Source: Candidatus Nomurabacteria bacterium (lineage in GTDB: Bacteria > Patescibacteriota > Minisyncoccia > Phycocordibacterales > UBA2100). From it: a DNA stretch of 48,523 nt. This document shows positions 3,360-23,384 of this stretch, in pieces. The notes beneath the pieces are model-generated. The model was not told the origin of the DNA. It worked only from the letters and a program-made list of their open reading frames with translations, and did not search any database. Where the stretch lies: NCBI GenBank assembly GCA_943356775.1, contig CALRFU010000002.1, positions 1-48,523 on the forward strand, given 5' to 3'. Every line of letters begins with the position of its first letter. Positions within the stretch are counted from its first letter, which is position 1. The translations under genes were made by a program, and so were the position numbers.

Positions 3360-3995
3360 CTACACTTTTGAAACCGCAAGCACTTTCTTTCTCATCGATT
3401 CAACTAAAGATGTTAGATCTTCATTGACAACGATATGATCAAAGAGGTCTTTTCGTTCTCTTAAGAGGGTCATGTCCTGCTCCGCATTTTTTAGCCGATC
3501 AAGAATATGCTGCTCGGTATCGCGCCCACGGCCGCGAAGACGATGGAGAAGTTGGCTGAGTCTCGTGCGCTTACTGTTTCCCGGCGGTAGCAGCCCGAAC
3601 GACAGGAGAGAGCGACGACCATAGTAATCTGCGAGGCCTTCGAGAAGCTGCAACTCAGTCACGACGCTCGGTATCTTGCCTGAATTCCAGACCGTCTCGA
3701 TATCGGCACCCCGATAGCCATACTGGCGATTCTCGGTTGAAGACGGAATCTGCGCTGTTGCAACGAGAATTCCACCTCGTTTCATTCGTTCAAATTCTTT
3801 CTGCGTCACATAGACGTATTCTCCGTCGTCGCCCTGTTTTGGGTTCCGTGTTGTGATAATTGCTATGTTCTCGATGTATTCAGAACCTACCCCTGCAAGC
3901 ATTCTACGTATTGTCGATTTACCTACGCCCGAAGGACCCGTGAGGGCGAGTATATAACCAGGGAATTTTCGCGGAGCGGAAGTGATATGGTTCAT
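3360..3995 (-). CDS. gmk: guanylate kinase (divergent)
   Basis: Predicted to phosphorylate GMP to GDP. The protein (211 aa) has the P-loop GPSGVGKST near residue 20, then ITTRNPKQGDDGEYVYV (the GMP-binding TTR..R.GE..G.dY.FV region) followed by QKEFERMKRGG, then QYGYR. A late arginine-rich lid RLRGRGRDTEQHILDRLKNAE corresponds to the RLxxRgtdseexixxRlxxA helix of Gmk. The segment between lid and core is longer and less conserved than in E. coli Gmk. The ATG at 3995 has TATACC or GTATAC 4-5 nt upstream, suggesting a leaderless start, and diverges from uppS. Confidence 0.8.
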   Translation of the reverse strand: MNHITSAPRKFPGYILALTGPSGVGKSTIRRMLAGVGSEYIENIAIITTRNPKQGDDGEYVYVTQKEFERMKRGGILVATAQIPSSTENRQYGYRGADIETVWNSGKIPSVVTELQLLEGLADYYGRRSLLSFGLLPPGNSKRTRLSQLLHRLRGRGRDTEQHILDRLKNAEQDMTLLRERKDLFDHIVVNEDLTSLVESMRKKVLAVSKV

Positions 3996-4073
3996 GCTTG
4001 GTATACGTATGTGCCCATACTACAGGAGTCTTTCGTCAGACGGTACTTCCTTGCTATTATCGGACGTAAGTCT

Positions 4074-4760
4074 ATGAGTGGAAAATCAAACGTTCCTGCA
4101 TGTATCGGCATTATCCTCGATGGTAATCGTCGTTGGGCAAAAGAGAACAGACTCCCCTCCTTCGAAGGTCACCGACGAGGGATGAACAACGTTGAGCCAA
4201 TTGCCTTTGCAGCACGAGACCTAGGGATACAACACATGATCGTATATGCATTTTCGACAGAAAATTGGAATCGTTCCAAAGAGGAAGTCTCGTATCTCAT
4301 GGAAATATTCGAGTCTACGATACGCGAGCGCTTAGCGGAATTTGCGAAAGAACATATAGCGGTGCGTTTTGTGGGGCAGATAGAACGCTTCCCCCAAACC
4401 CTCCAAGACGCAATGCGCGCTACAGAAGAAAAAAATCCGCGAGAGCCTCTGCTTACGATATGGATATGTATTTCATATGGCAGCAAGGCGGAGATGGTAC
4501 ACGCCGCGCGAGCCGCACAGGAGGCAAACGAGACCATCACCGAAGAGTCTCTCGCAGGGCACCTGTGGACATCTGGAATGCCCGACCCAGATCTCATCAT
4601 TCGGACGGGAGGAGAAAAACGCCTCTCCAACTTCCTTTTGTGGCAAGGTGCATACAGCGAGCTATTTTTCTTGGATATACATTGGCCAGCATTTACGGAA
4701 ACAGACCTAAAAAAAGTCCTGAGTGAATACGCTACGCGCGAGCGACGTTTGGGGAAATAA
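4074..4760 (+). CDS. uppS: undecaprenyl diphosphate synthase (cis-prenyltransferase)
   Basis: Condenses IPP units onto farnesyl-PP to make the C55 carrier of wall and surface polysaccharides. The 228-aa protein carries the family motifs: GIILDGNRRWA near residue 10 with the catalytic Asp, YAFSTENWNRSKEEV, and RTGGEKRLSNFLLWQ.AYSE near the C-terminus. The His that usually precedes (H-x-A-I-I-M-D) is absent here. ATG 4074 was chosen over the longer ORF (3987) because conserved sequence begins just after it. The ribosome-binding site is poor. IPP isomerase and MurJ in the same window fit a lipid II pathway. Confidence 0.92.
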   Translation: MSGKSNVPACIGIILDGNRRWAKENRLPSFEGHRRGMNNVEPIAFAARDLGIQHMIVYAFSTENWNRSKEEVSYLMEIFESTIRERLAEFAKEHIAVRFVGQIERFPQTLQDAMRATEEKNPREPLLTIWICISYGSKAEMVHAARAAQEANETITEESLAGHLWTSGMPDPDLIIRTGGEKRLSNFLLWQGAYSELFFLDIHWPAFTETDLKKVLSEYATRERRLGK

Positions 4761-4781
4761 GGGCTGCACCCTCTCAAAGAA

Positions 4782-4966
4782 CCCCGAAGCAGAGCAAAGC
4801 TCGCTACGGGGCAGGCATCGCGCGTTTCCGAACACTAAGCCCAAGCGAGGCTCGCAGTACCTTTGCGAACCTCGCGCAACAAATATTCGTACCGTAACGA
4901 TATACCGTAGTGGTGATACGGGAGCAAGCAGGTACTTTCGTACCGTTCGCAAAGGTACTGCGAGCC
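4782..4966. repeat. long inverted repeat and hairpins after uppS
   Basis: A 22-bp perfect inverted repeat (4849-4870 with 4945-4966, core CTCGCAGTACCTTTGCGAAC) encloses 74 nt, which itself holds GGTAC-tttc-GTACC (4931-4944). A separate imperfect hairpin CCCCG...CGGGG spans 4782-4811. No ORF with coding character covers this spacer between the convergent uppS and SWIB genes. Confidence 0.85.
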
Positions 4967-4989
4967 GAAGGTTCCTAACCAACGCGCAC

Positions 4990-5021
4990 AAAAAGCCGCG
5001 GCCCCTTACGGGGCCGCGGCT
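4990..5021 (-). terminator. intrinsic terminator of the SWIB gene
   Basis: AGCCGCGGCCCC-ttac-GGGGCCGCGGCT is a perfect 12-bp GC stem, followed by TTTTT on the minus strand, 20 nt past the SWIB stop codon. Confidence 0.9.
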
Positions 5022-5041
5022 GGAAATTCTGTCTAGAACCC

Positions 5042-5299
5042 TTACTTCATGTGTGCCGAGACGAGCTTCGTCATCTCGAACATTGTGACTTCACCCTTGC
5101 CTCCGAAAAGGGCCTTCAGCTTGTCGTCCGCCAGGATGTTGCGCTTATTGGCAGGATTCTGGAGGTTGTTTGCCTTGATGTAGACCCAGATCTGCTTGAC
5201 CACCTGTCCGCGTGACATTGGACCCTTACCTACGACTGCCTCGAGTTCAGGAGTGAGGTTGAGGGGCTTTAATAATGCTGGATTTGCTGTTCGTACCAT
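5042..5299 (-). CDS. SWIB/MDM2 domain protein
   Basis: The 85-aa protein is a single SWIB fold: KPLNLTPELEAVVGKGPMSRGQVVKQIWVYIKANNLQNP followed by KRNILADDKLKALFG and a final helix. SWIB domains are best known from eukaryotic chromatin remodellers, and stand-alone versions occur in Chlamydiae and CPR bacteria, where the function is unclear but chromosome or topoisomerase association has been suggested. The start is MVRTANPA at 5299 rather than the ORF-track start at 5509, because the upstream extension is palindromic DNA without coding character. There is no SD; a TATAAT (5330-5335) lies about 30 nt upstream. Confidence 0.88.
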   Translation of the reverse strand: MVRTANPALLKPLNLTPELEAVVGKGPMSRGQVVKQIWVYIKANNLQNPANKRNILADDKLKALFGGKGEVTMFEMTKLVSAHMK

Positions 5300-5414
5300 A
5301 ATGGCAATGTTATTTACTTGTATGGAGGGATTATAGCCCCTGGCAAGGTATACGCTAGGGCACCAGTGTATAACACCGCACGCGAGTGTGCCCCGCTGAA
5401 AGTGGGGTCGAGAG

Positions 5415-5500
5415 TCGGCTGTAAGCCGATGCGAGAGCGTTATGCCCGCGCGTACTCGCGCGGGCATAACGCCACAGGCCGCCCAAGGGCGGCCTGTGGC
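5415..5500. repeat. array of three adjacent perfect hairpins
   Basis: Three unrelated palindromes follow one another: TCGGCT-gta-AGCCGA (5415-5429), a 16-bp stem GCGTTATGCCCGCGCG with loop TACT (5437-5472), and a 13-bp stem GCCACAGGCCGCC with loop CAAG (5471-5500). The last two share bases at their border. They lie between the SWIB start and the stop codon of the DUF378 gene (minus strand). No T tract identifies a simple terminator. Confidence 0.9.
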
Positions 5501-5517
5501 GAAAAACAACTTTCAAA

Positions 5518-5742
5518 CTACATCGAGCTACAATTCCTGCAGATGCCCTTGTGATTCACGACCTCGTAGACCGCAGAGAGACCCACGAGTACGTACACGA
5601 GCGATTCCACCTGTGGCCAAGAGCCGAGAAGCATGGAAACAACGTTCAATTCGGCTCCCATGAATCCACCAAGGCCCACCAAAAGCCAGTTAAGGCCTCC
5701 TACGACGAGGAGTACCCAAGCGACCATGTGCACATTTTTCAT
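5518..5742 (-). CDS. DUF378 family membrane protein
   Basis: The 74-aa protein has two membrane segments. The first, AWVLLVVGGLNWLLVGLGG, matches the G-G-L-N-W-x-L-V-G signature of DUF378 (YuzA-like). The second is VESLVYVLVGLSAVYEVV. It ends in a short cytoplasmic tail with two Cys (GICRNCSSM). The start was moved to the ATG at 5742, where the fold begins. The molecular role of the family is unknown. The 3' side carries a three-hairpin array. Confidence 0.85.
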   Translation of the reverse strand: MKNVHMVAWVLLVVGGLNWLLVGLGGFMGAELNVVSMLLGSWPQVESLVYVLVGLSAVYEVVNHKGICRNCSSM

Positions 5743-5889
5743 ATATATTGGAGAGAAGAGATTGACTAGTAAAGTCGACCCGTTAATAGCACCCAATCAG
5801 TATGAACTCTTTTATGAAGCGCGCCACTCAGTTATCCACTCGAATCGCTTCGCTCGCTCGTGGCAAGCCATTCCCATAATCAAGCTTTT

Positions 5890-18863: not shown

Positions 18864-18905
18864 GGAACCCTCTGCTGCGGTGCGGCAGGGGGGTCCATCT
18901 TTTTA
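18864..18905 (+). terminator. intrinsic terminator of the LOG-family gene
   Basis: GGAACCC.CTGC pairs with GCAG.GGGGTCC around a short GC loop and is followed by ATCTTTTT. It lies 20 nt past the stop codon. Confidence 0.8.
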
Positions 18906-19406
18906 TACCCGCTCCAAATCAACCCACGAATATTTCAATCCGTTCCATTCGCGCTTTTCTTCAAATACTTTTTTTGTGAAGGTATCGGCGTACGGCGGGA
19001 AAAAAGAATCCGCTTCTTTTTCGTTGTCGATGAGCGTGATGTAGAGTTTTTCGATATACGGGAGCGCTTGCTTGTAGATTTGCGCGCCGCCGCCGATGTA
19101 TACCTCTTGGTCGTCGAATTCTCTCCCCTTCGCAATCGCCTCTTCAAGCGAAGAAGCGACAACGACGCCCTCGTAACTCCACTCCGCATCACGGGTGACC
19201 ACGATGTTGGTACGTCCTGCGAGGGGCTTACCGTGGGTGTAGCCGAGAATAGATTCAAATGTCTTGCGCCCCATGATGATGGGGTGTCCGAGCGTTAATT
19301 CTTTGAAGCGCTTGAGGTCATCGGGAATATACCAGAGAAGCTTCTCGCCATATCCTAGCTCTCGATTCTTCCCGATAGCGACCACCGCGCAGATACGGCC
19401 CGCCAT
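18903..19406 (-). CDS. folA: dihydrofolate reductase
   Basis: Reduces dihydrofolate with NADPH, regenerating THF used by thymidylate synthase. The 167-aa protein shows ICAVVAIGKNRELGYGEKLLWYIPDDLKRFKELTLG (substrate Asp in IPDDL), PIIMGRKTFESI, GRTNIVVTRD, EVYIGGGAQIYKQALPYIEKLYIT and a C-terminal DSFFPPY. The ORF track begins at TTG 19415; ATG 19406 lies one base after the dcd stop and is preferred. It is the third gene of a thyA-dcd-folA run. Confidence 0.95.
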   Translation of the reverse strand: MAGRICAVVAIGKNRELGYGEKLLWYIPDDLKRFKELTLGHPIIMGRKTFESILGYTHGKPLAGRTNIVVTRDAEWSYEGVVVASSLEEAIAKGREFDDQEVYIGGGAQIYKQALPYIEKLYITLIDNEKEADSFFPPYADTFTKKVFEEKREWNGLKYSWVDLERV

Positions 19407-19407
19407 A

Positions 19408-20043
19408 TTATTCAAGTGCCGAGAAATCCTTTTTCAATTTTTTGAGGTCGCCATTAAATACGAGTTTCATCTCGGCCGCCCTCTCTTTCTTACCCTTCTC
19501 CACTACATCCTTCTGATGCCAGCGGGATTTACGTGGTTCGACTTTATGTTTGAGCTCTTCGAAGACAATCTGACAGAAGCGTTCGCCGGGATGGAGTTGG
19601 ATGGTTTGCGAGTTCGTGTTGTTGCGGATAGGAAGTGTGAGCGGTCCTTCGTAGCCGGAATCGATGATACCCGTGAGGTCAACAGAAAGTCCTTTGCGAT
19701 TGACGGATGAACGCGGATATAAAACGGCCATTAAATCATTCGGTACTTTGATTGTTTCGAATGTAGAGACGAGCACATATTCTTGCGGCAAAAGCTCGAA
19801 GCACTGACCTTGTTCGAGCTCGATGACATCAAAGTATTCGGGCCCATGATCTTTTAGAGGGTCGAGACTGAGGGCCTGTCTCCCCTTCGATGTCATCTTC
19901 CAGGCCTTTGGAATAAGAAAGGTGAACCCGAGGCGAAGGTCGACCGCATGCATCTGTAATTGAAATTTGTCGAGTCCCGGGTTGAACTCAATATTGCCGG
20001 ATTTAACCCGCTCAAGAATCTCGTCTTTGGTGAGGATTGCCAT
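19408..20043 (-). CDS. dcd: dCTP deaminase (dUTPase superfamily)
   Basis: Deaminates dCTP to dUTP, feeding dUMP supply. The 211-aa trimeric-fold protein has LYPRSSVNRKGLSVDLTG (the P-R-S-S motif with catalytic Arg/Ser), IIDSGYEGPLTLPIRNN (catalytic Glu in Y-E-G) and IQLHPGERFCQIVFEEL. A C-terminal basic tail (KSRWHQKDVVEKGKKER) is longer than in E. coli. Whether it is also a dUTPase (bifunctional Dcd-Dut) cannot be told. It lies 12 nt after thyA and 1 nt before folA. Confidence 0.9.
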   Translation of the reverse strand: MAILTKDEILERVKSGNIEFNPGLDKFQLQMHAVDLRLGFTFLIPKAWKMTSKGRQALSLDPLKDHGPEYFDVIELEQGQCFELLPQEYVLVSTFETIKVPNDLMAVLYPRSSVNRKGLSVDLTGIIDSGYEGPLTLPIRNNTNSQTIQLHPGERFCQIVFEELKHKVEPRKSRWHQKDVVEKGKKERAAEMKLVFNGDLKKLKKDFSALE

Positions 20044-20055
20044 AGGTCGTACAGT

Positions 20056-20892
20056 CTACAACACGATTTGCATCCCCGTAATGGCAGGCGACGGATTGTA
20101 TTGGGCCGCGATAGGCGCGACTATTTCATCCACCAATTTCCTGTCTTTCTTCTCTGAGCGGTCAAAAACATTTTTCGGGAGGACCACATGAATTGGCTTG
20201 TGATCATTGGTTCGCTTCACCATCTCACGCGCGACATCGTACTGATTGTCCCAAACATGCGCATTGGATATTGAATGTGAATACACGCCGGACTCGACAC
20301 CGAGCTTCTGCGCCAAGATTATTTGCAAGAGAGCGAATCCGGCGACGTCTGACGGGAATCCCAAGACCATGTCATTAGAGCGCACCATGTTGTGAAGATG
20401 TAATTTACCTCCGATGATGTTGACGGTAAATGTATACGGGCACGGCACATTCGCTTTCTTCGTACCGCCGAGTCCATCCCCCGCCGGATCCCACGTGACG
20501 ACGACGCCATGACGTGAGCTTGGATCTTCTTTCAAAAGCTTCACGAGAAGTCCGAGTTGGTCGCGCCCAAAGTGTTTGCGCCACCGGTAGCCGTAGGCGA
20601 CCGTTACGACTCCGCCGGGGTTTGTGAAGCTGTCCCAGATTTTTGTGTAGTCACCCAAGAAATCGGCGGGCTTGCGAAGACCTGCAATAAACCAGACTTG
20701 CTCCGCGACAAACATCTTGACGGGGATTTTGCGGAGCGTCAGCAACGGAAAACCATCCTTACCCACGTCGTGGGAGAAATGGAGTCCCGGCACAGCTATG
20801 GTTGCGTGTCCGTTGCGCTCACTCTTTTGCTCTATCCCCTCACTGAGAATTCGCTTCAGCAAGCCTTGATACATTTCGTCGAAGCGGGTCAT
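20056..20892 (-). CDS. thyA: thymidylate synthase-family enzyme with dCMP-type Asp
   Basis: The 278-aa protein is clearly ThyA-like: WFIAGLRKPADFLGDY, SSRHGVVVTWDPA, nucleophile Cys151 in NVPCPYTF, HNMVRSNDMVLGFPSDVAGFALL and SISNAHVWDNQ. Aligned without gaps to E. coli RSCDVFLGLPFNIAS, the dUMP-selecting Asn177 is Asp182. In T4 dCMP hydroxymethylase and in the N229D mutant of L. casei ThyA, this Asp confers dCMP preference. The His after the catalytic Cys is Pro and the Tyr of H-x-Y is Trp. It may be a dTMP synthase with relaxed specificity or a dCMP (hydroxy)methylase. ATG 20892 has TACAAT six nt upstream (leaderless type). Confidence 0.85.
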   Translation of the reverse strand: MTRFDEMYQGLLKRILSEGIEQKSERNGHATIAVPGLHFSHDVGKDGFPLLTLRKIPVKMFVAEQVWFIAGLRKPADFLGDYTKIWDSFTNPGGVVTVAYGYRWRKHFGRDQLGLLVKLLKEDPSSRHGVVVTWDPAGDGLGGTKKANVPCPYTFTVNIIGGKLHLHNMVRSNDMVLGFPSDVAGFALLQIILAQKLGVESGVYSHSISNAHVWDNQYDVAREMVKRTNDHKPIHVVLPKNVFDRSEKKDRKLVDEIVAPIAAQYNPSPAITGMQIVL

Positions 20893-20946: not shown

Positions 20947-21444
20947 ATGTCGGATATTACCTATCCCTATCTCCCCTCCGGTCGCACGATTCTATACGTT
21001 CCTGAGAGCGATGCGTTTATACAAGAAGCGCGTGCATATGCCAAAGAACATTCGCTGGACGATACCGTTCAAACCGGCTCGGTCATTGTGAAAGACGGCG
21101 AGATTATCGGCCGCGGTGCAAACGGTACCGACTACCATAAAACACACGAATGCGAACGCGTGAAGCGTGGTATTCCAACCGGCCAACACTACGAACTCTG
21201 CGAGGGCTGTCATCCCAATAATCACAGCGAACCGCGTGCAATTGCCGATGCGCTCAAAAATGGCCACAAAACCCTCGGCACCGACCTCTATCTCTGGGGC
21301 CATTGGTGGTGCTGCGAGCCATGCTGGAATGCAATCATCAAAGCCGGCATCGAGAATGTGTACTTACTCAAAGACAGCGAGAAACTTTTCAACAAAGCGC
21401 ACCCCAACAACACCGTCAGCAAGCAATTTGCCGATGTAGAATGA
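20947..21444 (+). CDS. deoxycytidylate deaminase-like zinc enzyme
   Basis: The 165-aa protein belongs to the cytidine/deoxycytidylate deaminase superfamily. The catalytic zinc site is H93-S-E95 (HSEPRAI) plus C123-E-P-C126 in the WWCCEPCWNAII stretch. An extra Cys/His-rich insert, ECERVKR...ELCEGCHPNN, is typical of dCMP deaminases that bind a second zinc. It would turn dCMP into dUMP, or 5-methyl-dCMP into dTMP. ATG 20947 replaces the ORF-track start at 20557, which is antisense to thyA. TAAAGT lies 7 nt upstream. Confidence 0.85.
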   Translation: MSDITYPYLPSGRTILYVPESDAFIQEARAYAKEHSLDDTVQTGSVIVKDGEIIGRGANGTDYHKTHECERVKRGIPTGQHYELCEGCHPNNHSEPRAIADALKNGHKTLGTDLYLWGHWWCCEPCWNAIIKAGIENVYLLKDSEKLFNKAHPNNTVSKQFADVE

Positions 21445-21447
21445 AGT

Positions 21448-22059
21448 ATGCGCGGGAAATTCATCGTTTTTGAAGGCGGCGACGGCTCGGGCAAAACGAC
21501 TATTGTCGAGCGCCTGAAGAAAGAATTCCCTGACTTTATATTCACACAAGACCCCGGCGGCACCACATTCGGCGAGCACGTACGCGCGCTCCTTATGTCA
21601 GAAGATACAAAAAACATCGACGTGCGGGCAGAGCTCCTTCTTTTTCTCGCTTCGCGTGCTCAATTGATTTCTGAAGTAATACGGCCCGCACTTGAGAGCG
21701 GAAAGAATGTGATTTCCAACCGCTTTGCACTCTCCTCTATCGCCTATCAGCTATATGGTCGGGAGCGTCCAGAATTATTGCAGCTCTATAAGTCGGTTTC
21801 CGACGTCCTCCTCGATGGCGTACTGCCAGACGCGACAATTCTTCTCGACGTCAGCCCCGAAGTCGGTATCGCGCGAGTACACTCGCGCCCCGAAGAACCT
21901 ACTCGTTTCGACCTCGAGGCAATCGCCTTTCATGAGCGGGTACGGGATGGCTACAAAAAGCATATCGCCGAGTTCGGAACGCCCTTCATCATCGACGCAA
22001 ACAAGCCGCTTGAAGAGGTGTGGCAAAAAATCCAAGAGGCAGTACAATCGGCGCTATAA
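21448..22059 (+). CDS. tmk: thymidylate kinase
   Basis: Phosphorylates dTMP to dTDP. The 203-aa protein has P-loop FEGGDGSGKTT (8-18), DPGGTTFGEHVR, LLLFLASRAQLI and a LID-like RPEEPTRFD. The D-R-Y/F/H motif that follows the VIS strand reads N-R-F (Asn91-Arg92), so the usual Asp is missing. The start at 21448 lies 3 nt after the deaminase stop and has an overlapping TAGAAT 5 nt upstream, so it may have both an operon and an internal leaderless transcript. Confidence 0.93.
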   Translation: MRGKFIVFEGGDGSGKTTIVERLKKEFPDFIFTQDPGGTTFGEHVRALLMSEDTKNIDVRAELLLFLASRAQLISEVIRPALESGKNVISNRFALSSIAYQLYGRERPELLQLYKSVSDVLLDGVLPDATILLDVSPEVGIARVHSRPEEPTRFDLEAIAFHERVRDGYKKHIAEFGTPFIIDANKPLEEVWQKIQEAVQSAL

Positions 22060-22115: not shown

Positions 22116-23384
22116 ATGAATGATTACGAGCACATCAAAAAACAAGACCCGGAAATATTCGCCTCCCTTGAGGGCGAAGAGCATCGCGAGGCAGAAGGAC
22201 TGGAATTGATACCGTCAGAAAACTACGTCTCGATGGCGGTGCGCGAGGCCAATGGTTCGTGCCTCACCAACAAATATTCCGAAGGCTATCCTGGCAAGCG
22301 TTACTACGGCGGGCAGACCTACACGGATATGGTAGAAACGCTCGCAATCGAACGTGCGAAGAAACTTTTTAATTGTGGGTACGCCAACGTGCAGACCTTG
22401 GGTGGTGCGAATGCGAATATTGCGATGTACTTCGCGCTTCTGCAACCAGGTGACACCGTGCTCGGTATGGACCTTTCACACGGCGGACATCTTACCCATG
22501 GACACCCAGTCACGTACCTCACCAAGATATTCAACTTCGTACGCTATAAGATGAAGGATCCGAACACAGGAGAAATTGATTACGATGAGATGTTGAGGGT
22601 TGCAAAAGAGAGCAAGCCTAAGATTGTGCTTGCAGGCTTCTCCGCATATCCCCGCGAGCTCAACTATGCAAAATTCGTTGAGATAGCGCGCGAGGTCGGC
22701 GCCTATGCAGTGATGGATATCGCACACATCGCTGGCCTTATCGCAGGCAAGGCGGTCAAGAGCCCTTTTGATTTTGGATTCGACGTGATGACCTCAACCA
22801 CTCACAAGACGCTCCGCGGTCCACGCGGAGGTCTTATCCTCACACGCGATAACGAGGAGATTGCCAAGAAAATAGACAAGATGGTCTTCCCCGGCCTTCA
22901 AGGCGGACCGCATATGAACAACATCGCCGCTAAGGCCGTCGCCTTCGATGAAGCGCTGCAACCCGCATTTCAGACCTACGCCGTGCAAATTCTTAAGAAC
23001 GCAAAAGCTATGGAAAAAATATTCTTGGACAACGGTGTCCGCCTGCTTACCAGCGGGACCAGCAATCACCTGCTCCTTGCCGACGTATTCGGCAGCCTCG
23101 GCATTACCGGCCAAGAGGCGGAGACATTGCTGGACCAAGCGGGAATCACACTCAACAAAAATTCGATTGCGGACGATACGCGCAAACCGATGGACCCATC
23201 CGGTATTCGCTTTGGTACACCCGCGATAACCACGCGCAAATTTACAGAAAAGGAAAGTGCGCAGGTCGCGCAATTGATGGTGGATGTGATGAAAAACAAG
23301 AGCGACGAAAAGAAGCTCGCCGCCATCCGAGAAGAAATCCGTACGCTGTGCAAGAAGTTCCCTATCCCCGAGTCGTTCGTATAA
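22116..23384 (+). CDS. glyA: serine hydroxymethyltransferase
   Basis: A PLP enzyme that converts serine and THF to glycine and 5,10-methylene-THF, the one-carbon donor for ThyA. The 422-aa protein has GLELIPSENYVS, TNKYSEGYPGKRYYGG, GMDLSHGGHLTHG, VMDIAHIAGLIAG and the Schiff-base Lys motif TSTTHKTLRGPRGG. All active-site blocks are intact and the length is normal. No SD is seen; TATGAT lies about 47 nt upstream. It sits in the nucleotide region and links folate and dTMP metabolism. Confidence 0.97.
   Translation: MNDYEHIKKQDPEIFASLEGEEHREAEGLELIPSENYVSMAVREANGSCLTNKYSEGYPGKRYYGGQTYTDMVETLAIERAKKLFNCGYANVQTLGGANANIAMYFALLQPGDTVLGMDLSHGGHLTHGHPVTYLTKIFNFVRYKMKDPNTGEIDYDEMLRVAKESKPKIVLAGFSAYPRELNYAKFVEIAREVGAYAVMDIAHIAGLIAGKAVKSPFDFGFDVMTSTTHKTLRGPRGGLILTRDNEEIAKKIDKMVFPGLQGGPHMNNIAAKAVAFDEALQPAFQTYAVQILKNAKAMEKIFLDNGVRLLTSGTSNHLLLADVFGSLGITGQEAETLLDQAGITLNKNSIADDTRKPMDPSGIRFGTPAITTRKFTEKESAQVAQLMVDVMKNKSDEKKLAAIREEIRTLCKKFPIPESFV

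Follow-up and report, generated by a model that had tools for sequence, protein, structure and literature searches.

A chromosomal cassette of Patescibacteria that probably makes thymidylate by methylating before deaminating

Comparative sequence analysis indicates that a three-gene chromosomal cassette in a Candidatus Nomurabacteria genome probably makes dTMP by methylating before deaminating. The cassette, which comprises an Asp-type homologue of thymidylate synthase (P0001), a protein of the dCTP-deaminase/dUTPase family (P0002, here called DCD-like) and a zinc deaminase (P0003), lies in the window, the 48,523-nucleotide stretch of DNA analysed here (Table 1). Thymidylate synthesis is universal and a drug target, and to our knowledge cells make thymidylate only from dUMP, by ThyA or ThyX. 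A methylate-first route has so far been reported only from a bacterial virus, phage Xp12, and a literature search that left most subscription journals outside found no earlier report of a chromosomal, apparently sole, methylate-first dTMP route in bacteria. The residue signature of the synthase homologue, the co-occurrence of the genes, the exchange of a thyA-dcd pair for the cassette at one locus and the lack of other dTMP sources in the genomes checked are direct observations; the enzymatic steps are what we infer.

In the route we propose, P0002, which lacks the deaminase Glu, would first convert dCTP to dCMP. The Asp-type enzyme would then turn dCMP and methylene-THF into 5-methyl-dCMP and DHF; conserved residues and published mutants suggest that its Asp182 protonates and holds N3 and N4 of cytosine, where ordinary thymidylate synthase (TS) uses Asn for uracil. 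The zinc deaminase would finally convert 5-methyl-dCMP to dTMP, which Tmk would carry on to dTDP, and the DHFR and SHMT encoded next door would recycle folate, with glyA as the methylene-THF source. The model does not need modified cytosine in DNA. The original prediction, which had the enzyme acting on dCMP in a route from dCMP through 5-methyl-dCMP to dTMP, thus gains comparative support from an invariant Asp, 13/13 co-occurrence, the locus swap, the lack of another dTMP source and kinship with Xp12-type enzymes. The divergent dCMP-deaminase-like gene and the tmk that follows it are also as it described, and to these we add the DCD-like pyrophosphatase, which is the third gene of the cassette and was missing from it.

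Table 1. Features of the cassette and its neighbours, in window positions
Feature	Position	Strand	Basis or remark
Dihydrofolate reductase, folA	18903..19415	-	Pfam DHFR_1, 154 bits
dCTP-deaminase/dUTPase-family protein P0002, 211 aa, proposed dCTP (and dUTP) diphosphatase	19408..20043	-	Pfam DCD, 119 bits
Pro138 codon of P0002 (catalytic Glu138 site of E. coli dCTP deaminase)	19630..19632	-	Alignment
Asp-type thymidylate synthase homologue P0001, proposed dCMP methylase	20056..20892	-	278 aa from ATG, ORF intact
Asp182 codon of P0001 (E. coli TS Asn177, T4 gp42 Asp179)	20347..20349	-	Alignment
Asn148-Val-Pro-Cys151-Pro152 codons of P0001	20437..20451	-	Catalytic Cys; Pro at E. coli His147; Asn at Cys-3
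dCMP-deaminase-like zinc deaminase P0003, 165 aa, proposed 5-methyl-dCMP deaminase	20947..21444	+	Pfam dCMP_cyt_deam_1
Thymidylate kinase, tmk	21448..22059	+	NCBIfam DTMP_kinase, above cut-off
Serine hydroxymethyltransferase, glyA	22116..23384	+	NCBIfam SHMT, above cut-off

P0001 belongs to the thymidylate synthase superfamily, matching PF00303 (Thymidylat_synt) at 164.7 bits in Pfam and NCBIfam thym_sym at 118 bits, above cut-off, with the catalytic Cys present; its AF2 model (pLDDT 87.5) matches E. coli TS at a TM of 0.8. Residues were placed by phmmer against the PDB and by a MAFFT multiple alignment. In both the pairwise and the multiple alignment, RSNDMVLGFPSDVAG runs against E. coli RSCDVFLGLPFNIAS without gaps, so that Asp182, within RSND..LGFPSD, falls at Asn177 of the E. 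coli enzyme, as had been predicted. Asp is present there in 56/56 aligned Asp-type sequences and in 0/15 ordinary ThyA of the Patescibacteria (CPR). Cys151 and Asn148 are equally constant (56/56 each), Val98 occurs in 54/56, and the predicted Pro in place of the His after the catalytic Cys holds across the group (Pro152, 55/56). The replacement of Tyr by Trp in the H-x-Y motif is real in P0001 but fails as a signature: position 214 is Tyr in 52/56 Asp-type relatives, so the Trp is local variation, and as E. coli Y209W structures also exist we dropped it.

Compared with canonical ThyA of E. coli and L. casei, the Asp-type enzymes keep the fold, the catalytic Cys, Glu58, Trp80, Tyr94, Arg126, Arg166, Ser167 and His207, but differ in having Asp for Asn177, Pro for His147, His or Gln for Arg127 and Asn for Leu143; in P0001 these are Asp182, Pro152, His128 and Asn148, and Trp214 stands at Tyr209. 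P0001 thus has Asp at 177 and Pro at 147, positions that are Asn and His in a dUMP-specific ThyA, and it shows the features of an Xp12-type dCMP methylase, with Asp177, an NVPCP motif and no hydroxymethylase signature. TS mutants in which this Asn becomes Asp move their preference toward dCMP, according to work cited in PMC8670742, and in phage TS from contigs with modified and unmodified cytosine, positions 177 (Asp versus Asn) and 147 separate the two best (PMC8670742). The dCMP hydroxymethylase T4 gp42 and the CMP hydroxymethylase MilA (PMC5175136) also have Asp where the base is selected. The signature proposed for hydroxymethylases, however, is Asp three residues before the Cys, where TS has Leu, and Ser two before the Tyr (PMC6400193); unlike gp42, the enzymes here lack both, since Asn148 (56/56) and Val98 (54/56) stand in those places. 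Asn at Cys-3 is common to the Asp-type CPR enzymes and the Xp12-group phages. Three ordinary, Asn-type CPR ThyA (L028, L029 and L031) carry His-Asn at the phosphate-binding Arg126-Arg127 positions.

P0003 has the HxE and CxxC zinc motif of dCMP deaminases (PF00383) and their fold, laid out as H93-S-E95 ... GHWW-C-C123-E-P-C126. Among its orthologues E95, C123 and C126 are conserved in 54/54 and H93 in 53/54, and the GHWW before CxxC is invariant except for one W at 53/54. Cys69, Cys85 and Cys88 are further invariant cysteines and perhaps form a second zinc site. The protein matches the PHROG dCMP deaminase at 1e-14, and the top Foldseek matches of its AF2 model (pLDDT 91.9) are the dCMP deaminases of S-TIM5, T4 and PBCV-1. 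Known dCMP deaminases take 5-methyl-dCMP as well as dCMP (PMC12088426), and the deaminase by itself therefore leaves the order of steps unfixed. A second PF00383 gene of the same genome, considered as a true dCMP deaminase, was rejected as RibD, and no further PF00383 gene was present besides. What look like stops in some deaminase loci mark C-terminal ends, and the deaminase at L139 of genome G026 looks frameshifted.

The third protein, P0002, shares its family and N-terminal domain with dCTP deaminase and bifunctional DCD-DUT, but the catalytic Glu is replaced: the Glu138 site holds Pro in 50/50 full-length orthologues, against Glu in 8/8 aligned dcd genes beside ordinary thyA. Motif III is dUTPase-like (GIIDSGYEG, of the form GIIDxGYxG) with its catalytic Asp kept, and Asp128 and Tyr131 are each found in 49/50 orthologues. 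We expect P0002 to act as a diphosphatase that does not deaminate; it would convert dCTP to dCMP, the step that the model requires. In genomes G034 and G080 and the distant G199, a separate true dUTPase sits in the same locus as the DCD-like gene, which argues that P0002 serves something other than dUTP. Asp122, which by alignment faces the base site and is invariant in near orthologues, was considered as a cytosine selector and set aside, as the residue varies in more distant orthologues, Asn being one of those found. In the dcd genes of genomes with Asn-type ThyA (L081-L091), the position of E. coli Asp128 is Asn in all 8 of 8 beside ordinary thyA.

Across 98 genomes examined around our own (G000, itself included), 15 carry the Asp-type enzyme at 67-100% identity: 13 belong to the genus, one to the family and one to another part of the order; most of the others have an ordinary ThyA (about 30-38% identity), ThyX or neither. 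For the genus this amounts to 13/52 genomes; the remaining 39 have ThyX, an ordinary ThyA accompanied by an intact dCTP deaminase, or neither synthase. Among named genomes, a scan yielded 55 Patescibacteria loci (58-89% identity) from Kaiser-, Taylor-, Nomura-, Colwell-, Doudna-, Vogel-, Campbell- and Pacebacteria and one Saccharibacteria; one contig, labelled Saprospiraceae, is probably misbinned. In a phylum-wide draw, 5/152 other genomes had the enzyme (49-60% identity), and all five keep the Asp. Genome G037 has two copies of the cassette on short contigs (C53 and C57), possibly through strain mixture.

Its partners follow it closely. Within the genus, all 13 Asp genomes have a deaminase orthologue, against 2/39 of the rest (Fisher p about 1e-10), and all 13 have a DCD-like orthologue, against 0/39 (p about 1e-12). 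Neither value is corrected for kinship, and counts within the genus lack phylogenetic independence. One of the two other deaminase-bearing genomes, G046, is probably a cut cassette, because its deaminase fragment stands at a contig edge and precedes tmk-glyA; the other, G015, has ThyX, and its orphan GHWW deaminase (L108, 6574-7080) lies away from the ThyX locus. Of the 55 named loci, 53 have the deaminase, the two absences being contig ends, and 52 have the DCD-like gene, with one absence at a contig cut. The true exceptions are L169 and L170, whose genomes lack the DCD-like gene; there a MazG-like NTP-pyrophosphohydrolase (a weak Pfam match, just below cut-off) adjoins folA instead. In the five distant genomes of the phylum draw, a GHWW/GHFW-type deaminase, forecast beforehand, was present in 5/5: four are strong matches (190-256 bits), two of these adjoining ThyA, and the fifth is weak but carries the GHWW-CxxC signature. 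In three of the five the deaminase is away from ThyA. The longest cassette, in G199 (L211, 860-4803), has all its genes in one orientation: Asp-thyA, the DCD-like gene, the deaminase, a second deaminase fused to a kinase-like domain, a dUTPase and DHFR. Rfam found no RNA families between 15000 and 26000 of the window.

In Asp genomes the deaminase, Asp-thyA and DCD-like genes lie between tmk/glyA and folA, and G036 and G007, two Asn genomes, have a thyA-dcd pair in the identical slot with the same outer neighbours. The genes that make dTMP have been exchanged in situ. Nor did we find another source of dTMP: the Asp genomes, G000 among them, have no ThyX and no second, ordinary-type ThyA (in G000, with 811 kb and 98% completeness, PF00303 matches P0001 alone), and thymidine kinase was found in 0/30 genomes tested, Asp genomes among those checked. 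If dTMP is not imported, its synthesis must be fed by the Asp enzyme.

The best phage relatives of P0001 come from Mesyanzhinovviridae (PaMx74, AAT-1, Mallos, A1432 and AXL1) and from Rhodobacter, Roseobacter and Achromobacter phages, with RDJL-type phages among the closest. All those aligned have Asp at 177 and NVPCP. In most of those examined, the genes next to TS are the dCMP deaminase that pairs with it, an NTP-pyrophosphohydrolase and DHFR; Achromobacter 83-24 has no DHFR annotated near its TS. The Xanthomonas phage Xp12 is a Bosavirus of this group (PMC11946847). Its DNA has 5mC in place of all C, and it obtains 5-methyl-dCMP by methylating dCMP from a folate donor (PMC8543423). PMC12088426 cites reports from 1982 of "a new thymidylate biosynthesis" and of a 5-methyl-dCTP deaminase in this phage; its dCMP methyltransferase and this biosynthesis are credited to Kuo & Tu 1976, Feng 1978, Kuo 1982 and Wang & Ehrlich 1982. 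The predicted bacterial route resembles that of Xp12 in its dCMP methylation by a TS-family enzyme with a folate donor and in a deaminase giving a thymidine nucleotide, and the Xp12-family operon of pyrophosphohydrolase, TS, deaminase and DHFR is similar. Unlike here, Xp12 makes 5mC DNA, and its deaminase is, in the sources as cited, reported to act on 5-methyl-dCTP. The bacterial genes, moreover, are chromosomal, their deaminase falls in another subgroup (GHWW), the MazG/PRA-PH-type hydrolase gives way to a DCD-like protein, and the enzyme is apparently the cell's only dTMP source. In a tree whose root is not fixed, and in the sequence comparison, the same-genus phage AXL1 stood in for Xp12 (MT664984). 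The Asn enzymes form one clade (95/98), the CPR Asp enzymes and the viral contig L174 another (82/89) and the Xp12-type phages a third (98/99), with gp42 far off. L174 (IMGVR_UViG_3300036766_000613), whose Asp-ThyA comes closest to the bacterial enzyme among its viral relatives, at 50% identity, encodes a dUTPase, a deaminase, an MT-A70-like methylase (by eye) and the Asp-ThyA at 3604-5795. Microbacterium phage Huwbert (L203, 1635-3280) has two adjacent TS genes that differ at 177, where the first type has Asp and the other Asn, and also a dCMP deaminase.

The alternative that survives best, although we consider it unlikely, is the usual order, in which dUMP arises from dCMP through the deaminase, P0002 acts simply as a dUTPase and the Asp-type enzyme methylates dUMP to dTMP. 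The same gene set fits this order too, dCMP deaminase with TS being the common Gram-positive and eukaryotic route (PMC10733785), and L174 pairs a true dUTPase with the deaminase and Asp-ThyA. Among the points that we count against the methylate-first route are the lone GHWW deaminase of the ThyX genome G015 and the dUTPase-like motif III of P0002, both of which favour the usual order, and the unlinked deaminases of 3/5 distant genomes. Against the usual order stand the invariance of Asp177, at which the published Asn-to-Asp mutants, as cited, shift toward dCMP; the covariation of Pro147 with it; the separate true dUTPase beside the DCD-like gene in G034 and G080; and the closest phage relatives, which belong to the dCMP-methylating group.

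It is very improbable that 5-methyl-dCMP is made for 5mC in DNA, as in Xp12, with dTMP coming from elsewhere. Xp12 carries 5mC for C, and its relative AXL1 withstands many restriction enzymes (PMC9206674, PMC7653180); a C5-cytosine DNA-methyltransferase-like ORF, recognized by eye, also lies about 500 bases downstream of Asp-ThyA in one distant carrier (L212, 5322-6419). This reading is opposed by the absence of ThyX, ordinary ThyA and thymidine kinase in the Asp genomes checked, by the place of Asp-ThyA in the thyA slot beside tmk and by the near-constant presence of the deaminase alongside it. A dCMP hydroxymethylase like T4 gp42, with which the enzyme shares the Asp179-type residue and the RSND..xG...D motif, is just as improbable given the missing hydroxymethylase signature (PMC6400193), the absence of any other dTMP source found and a DHFR-type gene near most Asp-ThyA loci (40/57, in one query), which fits reductive methylation.

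We favour the methylate-first route and regard it as reasonably likely that some cellular lineages make all their thymidylate without dUMP, by way of dCTP, dCMP, 5-methyl-dCMP and dTMP, on a cassette that replaced thyA-dcd in place. Like ThyX, this would give cells that lack ThyA another thymidylate synthase; unlike it, the enzyme would not use dUMP, as ThyX, a flavin enzyme of unrelated sequence, still does. If the reading is correct, it has several consequences. First, dUMP would be avoided as an intermediate in a cellular lineage. Second, the annotation of Patescibacteria metabolism would change for genes now called thyA and dcd. Third, a route of a 5mC phage would serve as housekeeping metabolism, giving cells a third way to thymidylate beside ThyA and ThyX. 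The exchange of cassettes within one genus offers a clean natural comparison, and the question can be tested with three small proteins.
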